Positions 4,410 through 13,313 of a stretch of DNA of 64,000 bases are shown here, piece after piece. This DNA is from Chlorobium sp. (lineage in GTDB: Bacteria; Bacteroidota; Chlorobiia; Chlorobiales; Chlorobiaceae). The DNA lies in contig SZXW01000007.1 of NCBI GenBank assembly GCA_005862285.1, forward strand, positions 62,001 to 126,000, read 5' to 3'. Made by a program: the position numbers and the translations under genes. Below the pieces are notes generated by a model. That model searched no databases. It was not told where the DNA came from and saw only the letters and a list, made by a program, of their open reading frames with translations. How positions within the stretch are numbered: the first letter of the stretch is position 1; each line of letters begins with the position of its first letter.

Positions 4410-6686
4410 TTACAGTTTCCTTGTTTTGAGCCGGAGTGAATTGCTGACAACCGAAACGCTGCTTCCCGCCATGGCAAGCCCTGAAAAAACAGGGTTCAGG
4501 AATATCCCCCAGATAGGGTAAAGTGCCCCAGCGGCGAGCGGAATCCCGATGATGTTGTAGATAAATGCCCAGAACAGGTTCTGGCGGATAACGTTCATTG
4601 TGGCATGAGAGAGCGTTATAGCCTGTGCAATTTTTCTGATATCGCCCTTGAGGAGGGTAATGCCTGCCGACTCGATTGCGATATCGGTTCCTGTAGCCAT
4701 TGCGATACCGACATCTGCCAGCGCGAGGGCGGGAGCGTCATTGATGCCGTCACCGGCCATTGCTACTTTTTTTCCGTTTGCCTGAAGGGCCTTGATTTTT
4801 TCAGCCTTCTCGCCGGGCATGACTTCGGAAAAAACATCATCGATCCCTGCCTGTCCGGCAATATATGCTGCAGCTGACTTGTTGTCTCCGGTCACCATGA
4901 TAACCTTCAGGCCCATGCGGTGCAGCGCGGAGATTGATTCGGCAGCATGCGGCTTTACCGTGTCACTCAGAGCGATAAGGCCTTTCAGTGTCCCGTTTTC
5001 TTCGACGATGACAACGGTTTTTCCCTGATCCTGAAGCTTTTTGATTTCAGGATTGCCTTTTTCATTGGTACCGGGTTTTCGAACGATAATCGAACTGCCG
5101 TCGATCGAGCCCGAAACCCCGATTCCTTCAAGAGCCTCGAATGACACTATCTCGCCGGGAACAAGGCCCTTCTGGCCGGCATGTTCAACGATAGCCCTTG
5201 CAAGCGGATGTTCCGAACGGTTTTCAACACTTGCCGCAAGCTGAAGCACCAAATTCTTACCGGCAGCGCCATCAAACGATATGATATCTGTAACCGCAGG
5301 GTTTCCGGTTGTGATGGTCCCGGTTTTATCGAGCACGATGGTATCGACAGCTGCAAGCTTTTCAAGGCTTTCGGCGTTACGGATCAGTATTCCGTATTCC
5401 GCACCTTTGCCGACGCCGACTATGATGGCCGTCGGTGTTGCGAGGCCGAGAGCGCAGGGGCATGCTATCACGAGAATACCGACCATTCCCATGATACCGA
5501 ATGAGAGTGCCTGCGAAAACCCGATGAAATAAGACCCGGCGGTAAGCCAGACGATCAAACAGAGTGCGGCGATAACAAGCACGGCAGGCACAAAAACACC
5601 GGCAATCCAGTCGGCGATATGCTGTATGGGCGCTTTGGACCCCTGTGCATCCTCGACCATCCTGATGATGCGGGAAAGCACCGTATCCTTGCCGACATTC
5701 GAAGCGACAAACGTGAAGGACCCCTGTTTGTTGATGGTTCCCCCGATTACTGTGTCGCTTTTCTTTTTATCGACTGGAAGGGGTTCGCCTGATACCATGG
5801 ATTCGTCAACTGATGAAAAGCCATCAGTGACGGTGCCGTCCACGGGAATTTTAGTCCCGGGTTTTACGATCACCTGGTCGCCCTTTCTTACCTGTTCGAG
5901 AGGAATTTCAATCTCCTTGCCGTTTCTCAGCACAAGGGCGGATTTTGCCTGAAGGCCGATGAGCTTTTCGATGGCTTCCCCGGTTTTCATTTTCGAGCGG
6001 GCTTCCAGATATTTACCGAGCAGAACGAAACCTATCACGACGATAGTGACATCGAAATAAGTATAATCGGGGATTCGAAGAAGCTGCTTTATTGGCGGGA
6101 CAAGCGTTATGAGGGCGCTGAAGATGAAGGCCGTCAGCGTGCCGAGACCGATCAGGGTGTCCATGTTTGCCGCTCCCGTGCGGATAAAGAGCGTTATGCC
6201 ATGAAGAAACGGAGCTCCCGTGCGGAAAACCATGTAGGTCGAAATCGCCATGGAGATGACATTGAACAGCTCCATCGGAACCGGCAGATTGGGTACGGCA
6301 GGGACTATCTTTGCCGCGATATCCCACATCATCAGCAGGAAAACAAGAAGGGCCAGAGGAAATGCAAAAAGCACCTTTGCGAGCTGTTCGTCGAGTTCAC
6401 GCTGCTTTTCTTCCTTAATCAGGGAAACATCCGCAGGAGCGGATGGGAAAACAGGGCAGGTATCACTTTCAGGATGTTCTGCAATCAGATTGTAACCATA
6501 TTTTTCGATGACATCGTTGAGGGCATTGGCGGAAAGAGCTTCGCCCTCGAATTCGATACTTGCTTTTTCCGTAGCAAGATTGACATCGACTTGTCTTATG
6601 CCCTCGACTTTCGAGAGCTTTTTCGAGATGATGGCCGCACAGCTCGCGCAGTGCATGCCTTTGACCGTATATGTTTCCTTGCTCAT
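4410..6686 (-). CDS. copA: Copper-exporting P1B-type ATPase
   Basis: A 758-residue heavy-metal ATPase. Order: one N-terminal HMA domain with GMHCASC (about residues 10-16), membrane helices, actuator domain (SGEPLPV), the ion-path CPC motif in [12 protein letters not shown] (about 411), phosphorylated Asp of DKTGTIT (residue 453), and the [10 protein letters not shown] hinge. CPC plus an HMA domain is typical of Cu(I) export. The start codon overlaps the stop of the upstream DUF305 gene as ATGA, so the two are translationally coupled. The unusual leader described at 7359-7567 precedes this operon. Confidence 0.95.
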
Positions 6687-7772: not shown

Positions 7773-9113
7773 ATGACACAAATGCAGGTACTTGTCGTAG
7801 ATGACGAGATGAACATAAGAAAGACACTTGCACTTTTCATGGAATCGAGGGGTCACAAAGTAACAACGGCAAACAGTTCACGTTCTGCGCTGGACGAAAT
7901 TGCACGGAACCGTTATGATCTCGCATTTGTCGATATCAGGCTTGGTACCGAGAGCGGACTCGATCTGGTAAAGGTTTTTACAAACACTTGCCCATCGATG
8001 AAGGTTATTGTCATAACGGCTTATGCTTCGATCGATACCGCTGTTGAAGCCATGAAACGCGGAGCCTCCGATTATCTCGCCAAACCATTTACACCCGCTC
8101 AGCTCGAAATGATGATTGAACGGCTGGCTGCGATGTGTGAAATGGAAAAAAGGATCGCATTCCTCCAGGACACGCTCGACAACATCAATCCTGAAGTAAC
8201 ATTTGTTTCCCGGGATGCGGCAATGCAGAAAACAATTGAACTTGCAAAGCAGGTTGCCTCTTCGGAAGCAGTTGTGATGCTTCGCGGACCGAGCGGCACC
8301 GGAAAAAGTGTCCTGGCCCGATCGATCCACCAGTGGAGCAAACGGTCTCATAATCCTTTCAGCATTATTTCCTGTCCATCACTAAGTCATGAATTGCTTG
8401 AAAGTGAACTTTTCGGACATGTAAAAGGTGCTTTTACCGGAGCGCTCAGGGATAATCCCGGCAGGATTGCCGCAAGCGAGGGAGGCACCCTTTTTCTTGA
8501 CGAAATAGGTGACATCCCGCTCTCAATTCAACCGAAACTGCTGCGGTTCATTCAGGAAAGGGAATATGAACGGGTAGGCGATCATCTCACCAGAAAAGCC
8601 GATGTCCGTATTTTAGCAGCGACAAACAACGATCTTGAAAAAGCTCTCGAGAAAGGGTGCTTCCGTGAAGATCTCTATTATCGTCTGAATGTCGTCCAGA
8701 TTTTTCTGCCGCCGCTTGCTGAGAGAAAAAGAGATATACCTGAACTGGCCGAAAAAACGCTTGCCGGTTTCAACGCTCAATACCACAAGAGTATCCATGC
8801 TTTCAGCAATGAAGTCATCTCCATGTTTCAGGAATATTCCTGGCCGGGAAACATAAGGGAACTCAGGAATGTAATTGAACGTGCAGTTATTCTCTGTGAA
8901 AACAACATCATCGGTAAAGAGCTTCTTCCTGATTCTATCTCGGCAAAAAGTTCACCGGTAAGAATCGGTGATATGGTTACCCTCGAGTCAATTGAAGAAA
9001 TGCATATACGACAGGTTCTTGAGAGCACAAAATCACTTCAGGAAGCGGCAAGCGTTCTTGGTATCGACCAGGCAACCCTCTGGAGAAAACGAAAACAGTT
9101 CGGCATTCTGTAA
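7773..9113 (+). CDS. Sigma-54-dependent NtrC-family response regulator, AlgB-like
   Basis: 446 residues in three domains: receiver (1-120; acidic pair in VVDDE, phosphoacceptor Asp54 in FVDIR, Lys in LAKPF), AAA+ sigma-54 activator (Walker A GPSGTGKS, the sigma-54 contact loop GAFTGA, DEIGDI), and a C-terminal Fis-type helix-turn-helix ending in [16 protein letters not shown]. The TLWRKRK ending resembles AlgB. Start 7773 is chosen because it puts the phosphoacceptor at residue 54 as in NtrC, has CGGAA upstream, and lies downstream of the possible sigma-54 promoter; in-frame ATGs at 7677 and 7743 are less likely. The next genes are a transporter and a KinB-like kinase, its probable targets and partner. 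Confidence 0.93.
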
Positions 9114-9133: not shown

Positions 9134-9180
9134 ATTGCAAAATGCAATTTTCGATATGTCGAATAATTGCGTTTTGCAAT
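9134..9180. promoter_or_regulatory. Composite palindrome, likely enhancer for the AlgB-like activator
   Basis: Two 15-bp palindromes, ATTGCAAAATGCAAT (9134-9148) and ATTGCGTTTTGCAAT (9166-9180), with centres 32 bp apart (about three helical turns), and TTCGA-TATG-TCGAA between them. The halves are also near-perfect inverted copies of each other, so the whole can fold into a 21-bp stem with one wobble and one bulge. It ends 78 bp before the -24 GG of the next promoter, a usual enhancer distance. It might also act as an mRNA hairpin after the regulator gene; there is no T-tract. Confidence 0.6.
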
Positions 9181-9255: not shown

Positions 9256-9272
9256 ATGGCACGGTTTTTGAT
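9256..9272 (+). promoter_or_regulatory. Sigma-54 (-24/-12) promoter of the KimA-like transporter
   Basis: ATGGCACGGTTTTTGAT: GG at 9258-9259 and G at 9270 with correct spacing; the -24 element TGGCACG is perfect and the -12 TTGA differs from TTGC at one base. AT-rich DNA between this and the palindrome at 9134-9180 could bend. Expected start of transcription is near 9282. Confidence 0.6.
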
Positions 9273-9420: not shown

Positions 9421-11403
9421 ATGACAGTCAAACAGCAGTTCGCGCAGGTAAAAAAATTTTTTGTAGGCGGTTCCCGCGATTTTCGTGACAGCAGAATATT
9501 TCATGCAATCTCTCTTACAGCTTTTCTCGCCTGGGTAGGGCTCGGTTCCGATGGTCTTTCATCATCGTGTTACGGCCCGGCTGAAGCCTTCAAAGCCTTG
9601 CAAAGCCATCCCACACTTGGAATTTTTGTTGCGATTGCCACAGGCCTTACCATTCTTGTCATCGCTTCCAGCTATTCACACATCATCGAGCTGTTTCCTT
9701 CCGGCGGAGGGGGATATCTGGTCGCGAGCAAACTGCTTTCACCTGAAGTCGGCGTCGTTTCAGGCAGCGCCCTGCTCATCGATTATGTCCTCACGATCAC
9801 GATTTCCGTTGCTAGCGGGGCCGATGCCATTTTCAGTTTTCTGCCTCCTTATTTACTGACCTACAAGCTCTGGTTTGCGATCGCCGGAGTCCTTATCCTG
9901 CTCATTCTGAACCTGAGAGGTATCAAAGAAGCCGTTTTGCCACTCGTACCCGTTTTCATGCTTTTCGTCCTGACCCACTTGATCGCTATCGCTTTTGCCG
10001 TCGGCTCTCATCTTATGAATTTCAGCACTGTGTATCATGAGACAGCAACGGAACTTGACCGGTCTTTTCATTCACTCGGCCTTTTCGGCGTCATGTTTCT
10101 GATTCTAAAAGCCTACAGCCTCGGTGCCGGTACCTTTACCGGTATCGAAGCGGTAAGCAATGGACTGCCTGTGCTCAGGGACCCGAAAATCCGCACGGCA
10201 AAAGTCACGATGCGTTATATGGCATGGTCGCTCTCGATAACCGTTATGGGACTTATGGCGGCCTACATCCTGCTCGGCGTACAGGACACCCCCGGCAAAA
10301 CCCTCAATGCGGTGCTGTTCGAATCGATCACGGCTTCATGGGGGCATGTGAGCGGCGTCGCATTTGTATGGATCACTCTGTTATCGGAAGCGATCCTGCT
10401 GTTTATCGCGGCTCAGACAGGTTTTCTCGACGGTCCGAGAGTTCTGGCGAACATGGCCCTTGACAACTGGCTGCCAAAGAAATTCGCCATGCTCAGTGAC
10501 CGTCTTGTCACGGAACGAGGAATTCTTGTCATGGGGCTTGCATCACTCGTCATGATGATAGTATCGAATGGTTCCGTCGATTTCCTCATCGTGCTTTACA
10601 GTATCAACGTTTTCATCACGTTCACCCTTTCCCAGCTTGGCATGGTCAGGCACTGGTGGCAGGAAAGAGGAAGCGAAAAAAAATGGATCAGCAAGATCAC
10701 GATCAACGGTATCGGCCTGGTGCTCACCACCTTCATCCTGCTTGCAGTCCTGCTGCTCAAGTTCAATGAAGGCGGGTGGATCACCATGCTTATAACCGGT
10801 TGTCTCGTCCTGTTCGCTCTTTATATCAAAAACCATTACAACAAAACATACGAAATCCTCAAGCGGCTCGATATCATTGTGGAAGCGGCTGTCCTGTCAG
10901 GCAGTGATGTCATCGCAAAAGAAAAGCCGGAGCCGGTTTACAACCCGAAAGCCAAGACGGCGGCTATTCTCGTGAACGGATTCAACGGGCTTGGCCTGCA
11001 TACGCTTTTCAGTGTCAATCGCCTGTTCGGCGGGGTTTACAAAAATTTTGTTTTTGTGGAAATCGGTGCAATCGATGCAGGCAGTTTCAAGGGCGCCGAT
11101 GAAATCGGCCATCTGAACGAGTATATCAGAAGCGAAAGCGGTAAGTATGTCGATTATATGAAAGAGAATGGTTACTATTCCGAAGCGTTTACATCGCTCG
11201 GAACGGATATCGTTGAAGAGATCAACAATCTTGTACCGAAAATCACGGAAAAATTTCCTGATATCGTCTTTTTCGGCGGGCAGCTTGTTTTTTCCAATGA
11301 ATCGCTGCTCGACAGGGTTCTGCATAACTACACCGTATTTGCCGTTCAGCAGAATCTTTACCTGCAGGGAATTCCCTTTCTCATTCTGCCGATACGGGTA
11401 TAA
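9421..11403 (+). CDS. APC-superfamily transporter, KimA-like (probable K+ or amino-acid uptake)
   Basis: 660 residues: about 12 membrane helices, then a soluble C-terminal region of roughly 160 residues. Seen: GSDGLSSSCYG early, FPSGGGGYLVASK, and SGSALLIDYVLTITISVASGADAI, which parallels the equivalent stretch of Bacillus KimA, a c-di-AMP-controlled K+/H+ symporter. Substrate is inference; other APC members carry amino acids. Start at 9421 (MTVKQQF) is chosen because the in-frame ATG at 9370 adds an atypical Cys-rich segment; neither has a good ribosome site. A strong GGAGAGAG at 9292-9299 precedes only a short out-of-register leader. The gene lies between the AlgB-like regulator and the KinB-like kinase and has its own sigma-54 promoter. 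Confidence 0.82.
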   Translation: MTVKQQFAQVKKFFVGGSRDFRDSRIFHAISLTAFLAWVGLGSDGLSSSCYGPAEAFKALQSHPTLGIFVAIATGLTILVIASSYSHIIELFPSGGGGYLVASKLLSPEVGVVSGSALLIDYVLTITISVASGADAIFSFLPPYLLTYKLWFAIAGVLILLILNLRGIKEAVLPLVPVFMLFVLTHLIAIAFAVGSHLMNFSTVYHETATELDRSFHSLGLFGVMFLILKAYSLGAGTFTGIEAVSNGLPVLRDPKIRTAKVTMRYMAWSLSITVMGLMAAYILLGVQDTPGKTLNAVLFESITASWGHVSGVAFVWITLLSEAILLFIAAQTGFLDGPRVLANMALDNWLPKKFAMLSDRLVTERGILVMGLASLVMMIVSNGSVDFLIVLYSINVFITFTLSQLGMVRHWWQERGSEKKWISKITINGIGLVLTTFILLAVLLLKFNEGGWITMLITGCLVLFALYIKNHYNKTYEILKRLDIIVEAAVLSGSDVIAKEKPEPVYNPKAKTAAILVNGFNGLGLHTLFSVNRLFGGVYKNFVFVEIGAIDAGSFKGADEIGHLNEYIRSESGKYVDYMKENGYYSEAFTSLGTDIVEEINNLVPKITEKFPDIVFFGGQLVFSNESLLDRVLHNYTVFAVQQNLYLQGIPFLILPIRV

Positions 11404-11498: not shown

Positions 11499-13313
11499 AT
11501 GATCAGCATTCGGTACAAACTTGTCCTCGGGTTTGTGGGGATTCTGGCAATGATAGCGGTTATCGGCACACTGACGATAAACCAGGTCGATCAGCTCGGC
11601 AACGCCATCAATGTTATTCTGACGCAGAATTACCGCAGTGTCGCTGCCAGCCAGGAGATGAAGGAAGCGCTGGAAAAAATGGACAGCGGCATCCTTTTTT
11701 CCTTTGCCGGGCATCATGAAACCGGGCAGCGTAATATCCGTGAGAATGAAACCCAGTTTCGAAAAGCACTGAAAATCGAGCTTGGCAATATAACCATTCC
11801 GGGGGAAAAGGAAAAAGCAGATAGGATAGCTCAACTGTTTGAAGAATACGTTACGGTTCTGCATCAGGTAGTCGATGACAGAATACCTTTATCGAAAAGG
11901 ACCGAAACCTATTTTTCCACACTGTTGCCTCTCCTGACGGAAATCAAAACCCTTGCCCAGCAGGTTCTCGATATGAATCAGGCAAAAATGGATGAAGCCA
12001 ACTATTCCGCAAGGCTTCTCGGGGTTTCAGCACATAACCGGATTCTCGCTGCGATCGCGGCAAGCGCTGCATTTGCGGTGTTCTTCAGTTTTCTTTCACG
12101 CAGATGGATTCTCAAACCCATCCGGAAACTTATCAATTCCACCAATGAAATCCGGAACGGAAATCTTGACCTTGTTCTTGAAACAGAGACAAAGGATGAA
12201 ATCGGTCAGCTTTCATCGGCGTTCAATGATATGGCCCTGACCTTGCGCCAGGTCCGCAATAATGACAGGGAAAAGATCCAGAGAACCAGCAGGGCCACAC
12301 AGGAGGTAATGAACATCCTCCCTACGCCGATAGCTATTTTTGATACCGGCGGCAAGGTTGATGTGGCAACAAGAACGGCAATACGATATTTCGGGTTGAA
12401 TCCAGGGGTATCGGCAGAAAATACAGGTTATTCATGGCTGCCGTCATTGCTCCGGAAAGCAGCCCGTGAAGGCTGCGCGGTCGAAACGGAAAACGGAAGC
12501 TGCATTCAGAAATTTATCGATAACCGTGAATTTTTCTTCAGGCCTGCAGCAGTGCCCATTCCTCCGTTTTCAAACACGGAAGGTGTCAGCGGTACCGTGC
12601 TGGTGCTGCATGACATGACACAGGTTCATGAACAGAAAGAACTGAAAAGAGGTGTCGTGTCAACAGTTTCCCATCAGCTCCGTACCCCTTTGACTTCCCT
12701 GCGTATGTCCATTCATCTGTTACTTGAGGAACGGTTAGGCTTGCTGAATGAAAAACAGTGCGAGCTGCTGCAGACAGCAAAGGATGAGAGCGAACGTCTT
12801 GCGGATATTCTTGACGAACTGCTCGATCTCAACAGGATCGAAGCGGGTAGGGCCCGGCTTGATATGCAGTCATTCGATCCGGAAACGCTTGTAAGGTCAT
12901 GTCTGGAACCTTTCTACAACCAGGCAGAGGAAAAGGGCATTGCCCTGGTGGTTGAGCTTCCGGAATCGCTTCCGGAAGTTCTTGCGGACAGACAAAGTAT
13001 TCAGCATGTATTTGCAAATCTTCTTTCAAATGCTATCCGTTTCACAGGACCTGGAGGAAAGATAACCGTGACAGCTGCAGCAGGGCTTTCCGGGATCAGG
13101 TTTTCCGTGCTCGATACCGGAGAGGGTATCGCTCCGGAACATCTTAAACATCTTTTCGACCAGTTCTACAGGGTTCCCGGTCAGGACGATAAATCCGGTA
13201 TCGGGCTCGGTCTTTCGATAGCCAAGGAAATCGTCAGTGCTCATGGCGGGAGCGTCGGTGTCGAAAGCACCATCGGGAAGGGATCTGTTTTTCATTTTAC
13301 CCTTCCTGTATAA
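11499..13313 (+). CDS. Membrane sensor histidine kinase, KinB-like
   Basis: 604 residues: TM1 (about 8-28), extracytoplasmic helical sensor domain, TM2 (about 180-202), HAMP, a PAS-like segment (about 265-375), HisKA with phosphoacceptor His392 in VSHQLRTPLTS, and HATPase with N-box LLSNAIRFT, G1 DTGEGI and G2 GIGLGLSIAKEIV. This is the domain order of Pseudomonas KinB, partner of AlgB, and an AlgB-like regulator lies two genes upstream. Ribosome site GGAG about 14 bases before the start. Signal unknown; position beside a KimA-like transporter suggests osmotic, K+ or envelope sensing (inference). Confidence 0.92.
   Translation: MISIRYKLVLGFVGILAMIAVIGTLTINQVDQLGNAINVILTQNYRSVAASQEMKEALEKMDSGILFSFAGHHETGQRNIRENETQFRKALKIELGNITIPGEKEKADRIAQLFEEYVTVLHQVVDDRIPLSKRTETYFSTLLPLLTEIKTLAQQVLDMNQAKMDEANYSARLLGVSAHNRILAAIAASAAFAVFFSFLSRRWILKPIRKLINSTNEIRNGNLDLVLETETKDEIGQLSSAFNDMALTLRQVRNNDREKIQRTSRATQEVMNILPTPIAIFDTGGKVDVATRTAIRYFGLNPGVSAENTGYSWLPSLLRKAAREGCAVETENGSCIQKFIDNREFFFRPAAVPIPPFSNTEGVSGTVLVLHDMTQVHEQKELKRGVVSTVSHQLRTPLTSLRMSIHLLLEERLGLLNEKQCELLQTAKDESERLADILDELLDLNRIEAGRARLDMQSFDPETLVRSCLEPFYNQAEEKGIALVVELPESLPEVLADRQSIQHVFANLLSNAIRFTGPGGKITVTAAAGLSGIRFSVLDTGEGIAPEHLKHLFDQFYRVPGQDDKSGIGLGLSIAKEIVSAHGGSVGVESTIGKGSVFHFTLPV

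Follow-up and report, generated by a model that had tools for sequence, protein, structure and literature searches.

Enteric NtrC (E. coli) is an AAA+ activator that binds two palindromic dimer sites about three helical turns apart, ~100 bp upstream of the promoter, and acts by DNA looping. In Desulfovibrio vulgaris Hildenborough, DVU3334 is the sigma54 response regulator of kdpFABC, for which a conserved binding motif and sigma54 control have been reported (PMC3333781, PMC4641369); sigma54 control of potassium uptake is therefore not new as a kind. The NtrC proteins of Rhodobacter capsulatus and Caulobacter are reported to be bEBPs that lack GAFTGA and work from sigma70 promoters (PMC10274813 and works cited there). 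The literature searched contained no report of a sigma54 two-component system controlling kimA or of a TTGC-N5-GCAA operator.

We analyzed a 64-kb window (the whole 64,000-nucleotide stretch of Chlorobium sp. DNA) containing a double palindrome; in this green sulfur bacterium, the regulator encoded next to the palindrome very probably activates the gene of a potassium importer. As in enteric NtrC, paired dimer sites lie about three turns apart upstream of a sigma54 promoter, but the half-site (TGCACC-type in NtrC), the target and the signal differ. The window regulator resembles DVU3334 in being an NtrC-type two-component protein with GAFTGA and with potassium-uptake genes as presumed targets; DVU3334 targets kdpFABC, whereas in the window kimA is the presumed target and the sites follow the regulator gene. 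With AlgB/KinB (Pseudomonas) it shares an NtrC-type response regulator beside a membrane sensor kinase gene, but target and context in the window point to potassium. New here are the assignment of the transporter to the KimA family of K+ importers and the finding of the element again, ahead of a kinase-kdpABC operon elsewhere in this genome. The features of the locus are as follows.

7773 to 9113, plus strand: NtrC-type sigma54 response regulator, with REC, AAA+ and Fis-type HTH domains (Pfam PF00072, PF00158, PF02954).
9134 to 9148, no strand assigned: site 1, an exact palindrome of ATTGC and GCAAT around AAAAT (ATTGCAAAATGCAAT), presumed activator dyad.
9149 to 9165, no strand assigned: 17-bp spacer between the sites, including a small palindrome of TTCGA and TCGAA around TATG (9150 to 9163).
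9166 to 9180, no strand assigned: site 2, an exact palindrome of ATTGC and GCAAT around GTTTT (ATTGCGTTTTGCAAT), presumed activator dyad.
9257 to 9272, plus strand: sigma54 -24/-12 promoter, TGGCACG and TTGAT separated by GTTT (TGGCACGGTTTTTGAT), score 15.7 of 17.7 (p 0.004 against shuffles).
9421 to 11403, plus strand: KimA-family potassium importer (APC superfamily, PF13520; phmmer to KimA 6S3K, E 3.3e-66), presumed target.
11499 to 13313, plus strand: membrane sensor histidine kinase (HAMP-HisKA-HATPase, Pfam), presumed partner, probably in the same operon.

The first-pass annotation had described two 15-bp ATTGC palindromes 32 bp apart, and both are exact and lie where it had placed them. 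Their centers, 9141 and 9173, are about three helical turns apart, and site 1 starts 21 bp past the regulator stop codon (9111 to 9113). ATTGC-N5-GCAAT has two matches in the window, both within 9134 to 9180, compared with 0.11 expected in the shuffled window and 0 of 100 shuffles with two, and a chance origin of the double palindrome is excluded. Genome-wide, the exact two-site pattern has one match in 2.6 Mb, and the next-best two-site matches carry 3 mismatches, at about the background of a reversed control. The two sites had also been read as inverted copies of each other around a third small palindrome. The window does have both the inverted arms (16 nt, 94% complementary) and the central palindrome, but the latter is not conserved: L008, the nearest relative, has it broken (TTTCAAGAAGTCGAATA) with the half-sites intact, and we therefore regard it as incidental.

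Conservation was assessed with transporter orthologs drawn from 61 genomes and with regulator orthologs drawn from a species-level collection, for which the stretch past each regulator stop codon was extracted; relatives outside Chlorobi came from one tblastn-type, pattern-based scan, and the genomes compared are mostly MAGs. A TTGC-N5-GCAA pair (consensus also written TTGC-N5-KCAA) lies just 3' of the regulator gene in most orthologous loci of Chlorobiaceae, Syntrophaceae, Lentisphaeria and Acidobacteria, and the regulator gene adjoins the sites in nearly all of them. The best-scoring pair is spaced at exactly 32 bp in 34 loci, at 31 bp in four and at 33 bp in three. A whole-locus scan (total mismatches ≤2) found spacings of 31, 32 and 33 bp 5, 36 and 3 times, respectively; other spacings mostly occurred 1-3 times, apart from 39 bp (7 times, for the most part the same sites in a shifted register). 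Across 20 non-redundant sequences, half-site columns mostly carry 1.7-2.0 bits and spacer columns mostly 0.1-0.7 bit. Ahead of orthologous transporter genes, where the first-pass annotation had suggested looking, the half-sites thus recur at a constant 32-bp phase, and they do so upstream of kinase-kdp operons as well. Two loci (L042, L125) have no sites directly after the regulator, with a pair found before their kdp genes, and no sites were found in L059 or L065.

A relaxed two-site pattern occurred in 18 of the 61 genomes, at a single place in each, and its reversed control in 1 genome. In 17 of these 18 genomes the pair lies upstream of kimA; in the eighteenth (G018) it lies beside kdp, at a relic locus between remnants of the regulator and the kinase and next to kdpA. 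At three kimA loci (L013, L017, L025) the upstream regulator is a remnant or missing and both sites are kept, with the hexamer TATGTT, described below, changed to TATCTT or TATTTT. In three spirochaete loci (L078, L079, L082), perfect ATTGC-N5-GCAAT pairs at 31-32 bp follow the stop codon of an activator with related AAA+-HTH parts and no detected receiver domain; in L079 and L082 the next genes are small iron-molybdenum-cofactor-type and MinD-like genes, i.e., the same operator with another function. Since these spirochaete regulators carry the same motif and spacing, the motif is not unique to this regulator clade.

The promoter at 9257-9272 begins 76 bp past 9180, and its GG lies 77 bp from that position and 85 bp from the center of site 2, close to the 78-bp gap to the -24 element given in the first-pass annotation. 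Its -12 element has GA (TTGAT) and not the canonical GC (TTGCW), an A or T being common at that place in the lineage. Sigma54-like promoters of Chlorobiaceae often have GA or GT for the -12 GC (TTGAT, TTGAA, TTGTA), and the Syntrophaceae and Lentisphaeria relatives have TGC at the same place. A significant sigma54 promoter was found downstream of the sites in 21 of the 22 loci examined. Relative to the center of site 2, the GG stands at +81 to +88 in the kimA loci (the window and seven other kimA loci of the clade) and mostly at +58 to +62 in the kinase-kdp loci. In two more distant relatives (G043 and G054; L149 and L152), kdpA is preceded by a sigma54-like promoter but by no TTGC-N5-GCAA pair, so kdp may there be under a different activator.

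Residues 10-485 of the 660 of the importer match PDB 6S3K, which assigns it to the KimA family by sequence. In relatives, the kinase gene stands either behind kimA or directly behind the regulator, and at loci with the kinase first the next gene is kdpA (identified by sequence and, within the genus, by PF03814). Because the kinase-first loci lead into kdpA, the regulators of the whole clade appear to control potassium uptake. The window's own genome (G000) holds a second such locus (C1:594-587 kb), where a relic of a regulator is followed by the pair TAGCAAAAAGCAA and TTGCGTTTTGCAA at 31 bp with 1 mismatch, a sigma54 promoter (TGGCATGGTATTTGAT), a kinase gene, kdpA, kdpB, kdpC and kdpD-like genes. 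The relic (6058-6510, reverse strand, of L165, G000:C1:585500-600500) retains the HTH half only, with an in-frame stop and no ATPase domain. The simplest reading would be that the intact regulator of the window now serves both kimA and kdp. A third pair in the same genome (C1:475036-475079, L167; 2 mismatches, 31 bp) has no obvious target gene and was left out of the counts. With a KimA-family target, and with the element found again ahead of a kinase-kdpABC operon in this genome, what the module regulates is probably potassium and not alginate.

The first-pass annotation had ascribed the motif to an AlgB-like clade; the conserved operator holds for the clade, and nothing found speaks for the AlgB label: the target is a KimA-family importer and sister loci carry kdpFABC. 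Neither NCBIfam nor the literature searched yielded an AlgB model, a binding motif or an alginate gene, leaving AlgB identity without support there, and the best named models for the regulator are AtoC and NtrC, all below their cut-offs in a model set without an AlgB model. The window regulator has an intact GAFTGA motif. Its recognition helix (DQATLW) goes with the inner half-sites GCAA and TTGN; in a paralogous clade the helix DKATLW goes with GCAC and GTGC half-sites, the spacing still being mostly 32 bp. This covariation of helix and operator is a single evolutionary (clade) event, and it therefore supports, and does not prove, binding by the regulator. Four features of a sigma54 enhancer are present together: a cognate activator with the expected domains and GAFTGA, a -24/-12 promoter downstream within the approximate 70-150 bp expected of such an enhancer, phased and conserved dyads, and rpoN (PF04552), which was found in G000 and nearly all relatives. 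With high confidence we interpret the double palindrome as a bipartite upstream activating sequence (enhancer) for the adjacent regulator, predicted to activate kimA through the sigma54 promoter.

From these data we infer the following course of events. Two dimers of the 7773-9113 regulator would bind the two TTGC-N5-GCAA dyads on the same face of the DNA, 32 bp apart; this arrangement had been proposed in the first-pass annotation, and the conserved half-sites and constant 32-bp phase argue for it. The kinase encoded at 11499-13313 would phosphorylate the regulator, which would then oligomerize on the site pair. The oligomer would loop to RNA polymerase-sigma54 at 9257-9272, and its AAA+ domain would open the promoter, driving the KimA-type importer gene and probably also the kinase gene behind it. 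The signal is probably potassium limitation.

Geometry by itself names no protein, and an unrelated dimeric repressor could bind such dyads, so the sites might be operators of another DNA-binding protein, e.g., a repressor of kimA, and not of the adjacent regulator. We consider this improbable: the sites accompany the regulator gene in different phyla, whether the target is kimA or kdp, a recognition-helix residue and a half-site letter co-vary, and the element stands at enhancer distance from a sigma54 promoter, a promoter type that requires an activator. Within the genus, moreover, the exact element occurs once per genome and is confined to the transporter locus or, in G018, to the kdp locus with the regulator relic.

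Slightly less probable again is that the region acts as RNA, in the form of a 21-bp hairpin ending the regulator mRNA (a terminator or stabilizer) with incidental palindromic arms. Folding of the plus strand gives an almost perfect hairpin (-22.7 kcal/mol, z -5.7) that starts 21 bp past a stop codon, and this good fold is the reason the RNA reading needed testing; a pair of dyads of like sequence, however, pairs with itself automatically, so that such a fold is expected. Pairing in the central stem was 3.15 of 9 against 3.49 in a permutation null (p 0.90, 20 non-redundant sequences), and the break in L008 disrupts that stem while the half-sites stay. Pairing between the two N5 centers was slightly above null in the same number of non-redundant sequences (3.45 of 5 against 2.91, p 0.003), which we attribute to the A-rich/T-rich asymmetry of the two centers and to relatedness. 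The first-pass annotation had named conserved stem pairing with poorly conserved half-sites as the outcome favoring an RNA hairpin; what we found was spacer pairing at or below the permutation null and near-invariant half-sites. The hairpin has no following T run and the sites no Rfam match, and a terminator or structured RNA was rejected on these grounds (spacer stem not conserved, no U-tract, no Rfam family on the sites). Short intergenic inverted repeats are common, but a chance palindrome or mobile repeat element can be practically discounted, as the exact element is single-copy in each genome and its place and phase are conserved over several phyla far beyond the shuffling expectation.

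The bipartite enhancer has a counterpart in a sister lineage in which the promoter type appears to have changed. At 13 Chlorobium kimA loci the sites are kept at 32 bp before the same target gene (~78% identical), and no sigma54 promoter above shuffle level was found in these 13 loci (median p 0.75); an overlooked sigma54 promoter was rejected because the best scores equal those of shuffles. The hexamer TATGTT is invariant at +30 to +35 from the center of site 2, between flanks that vary. It resembles the TAnnTTTG -7 element of Bacteroidota; acting as a -10 element, it would put the operator centers near -42 and -74. Mapped start sites of Chlorobaculum were sought in the literature, and none were found.

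The regulators of this lineage have GSFPGA (seven), GSFAGA (one), VSFTGA (one) or GSFTGA (four) in place of GAFTGA, while the loop threonine is kept in the regulators wherever the locus has a sigma54 promoter. The loop changes fall in at least 3 places on a tree from which the loop columns had been left out, and rpoN is kept in nearly all sister-lineage genomes. NifA was inactivated by a threonine-to-proline change in the loop, and GSFTGA is considered to be functional (PMC4641369). The four GSFTGA members without a sigma54 promoter are ambiguous as GAFTGA-less bEBPs. That GSFTGA had been kept for a sigma54 promoter at kdp was considered for G003 and G012 and rejected, as none with paired sites was found there. 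Some members of the GSFPGA group (L009, L011 and L016) have GTGKN in place of GTGK[ST] as Walker A motif, along with an altered Walker B neighborhood, a hint of weakened ATPase activity.

On balance we favor, with moderate confidence, the reading that a sigma54 enhancer-activator pair was converted in place, within one genus, to an activator for the housekeeping sigma factor. The -24/-12 promoter would have been lost and TATGTT gained, after which the GAFTGA loop would have decayed (T to P, T to A, G to V), with the regulator, the double operator with its 32-bp phase and the kimA target all retained through the switch. The Rhodobacter capsulatus and Caulobacter NtrC proteins (PMC10274813) parallel the sister lineage in loss of the sigma54-contact motif and, for the sister lineage presumably, activation at housekeeping promoters. 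There the loop is deleted, whereas the sister lineage shows point erosion (GSFPGA, GSFAGA, VSFTGA); also unlike those proteins, orthologs of the sister-lineage regulators still stand at a sigma54 promoter, with the same operator and target gene.

The analysis yields a predicted operator, TTGC-N5-GCAA twice at 32 bp, for a widespread and uncharacterized clade of sigma54 response regulators that green sulfur bacteria share with several further phyla, together with a predicted physiological role for that clade in potassium uptake by way of KimA and Kdp. The sister lineage makes the change from sigma54 activator to ordinary activator testable with natural intermediates; if the reading is true, the GSFTGA intermediates without a sigma54 promoter would form a natural series for an enhancer-binding protein changing its sigma factor.
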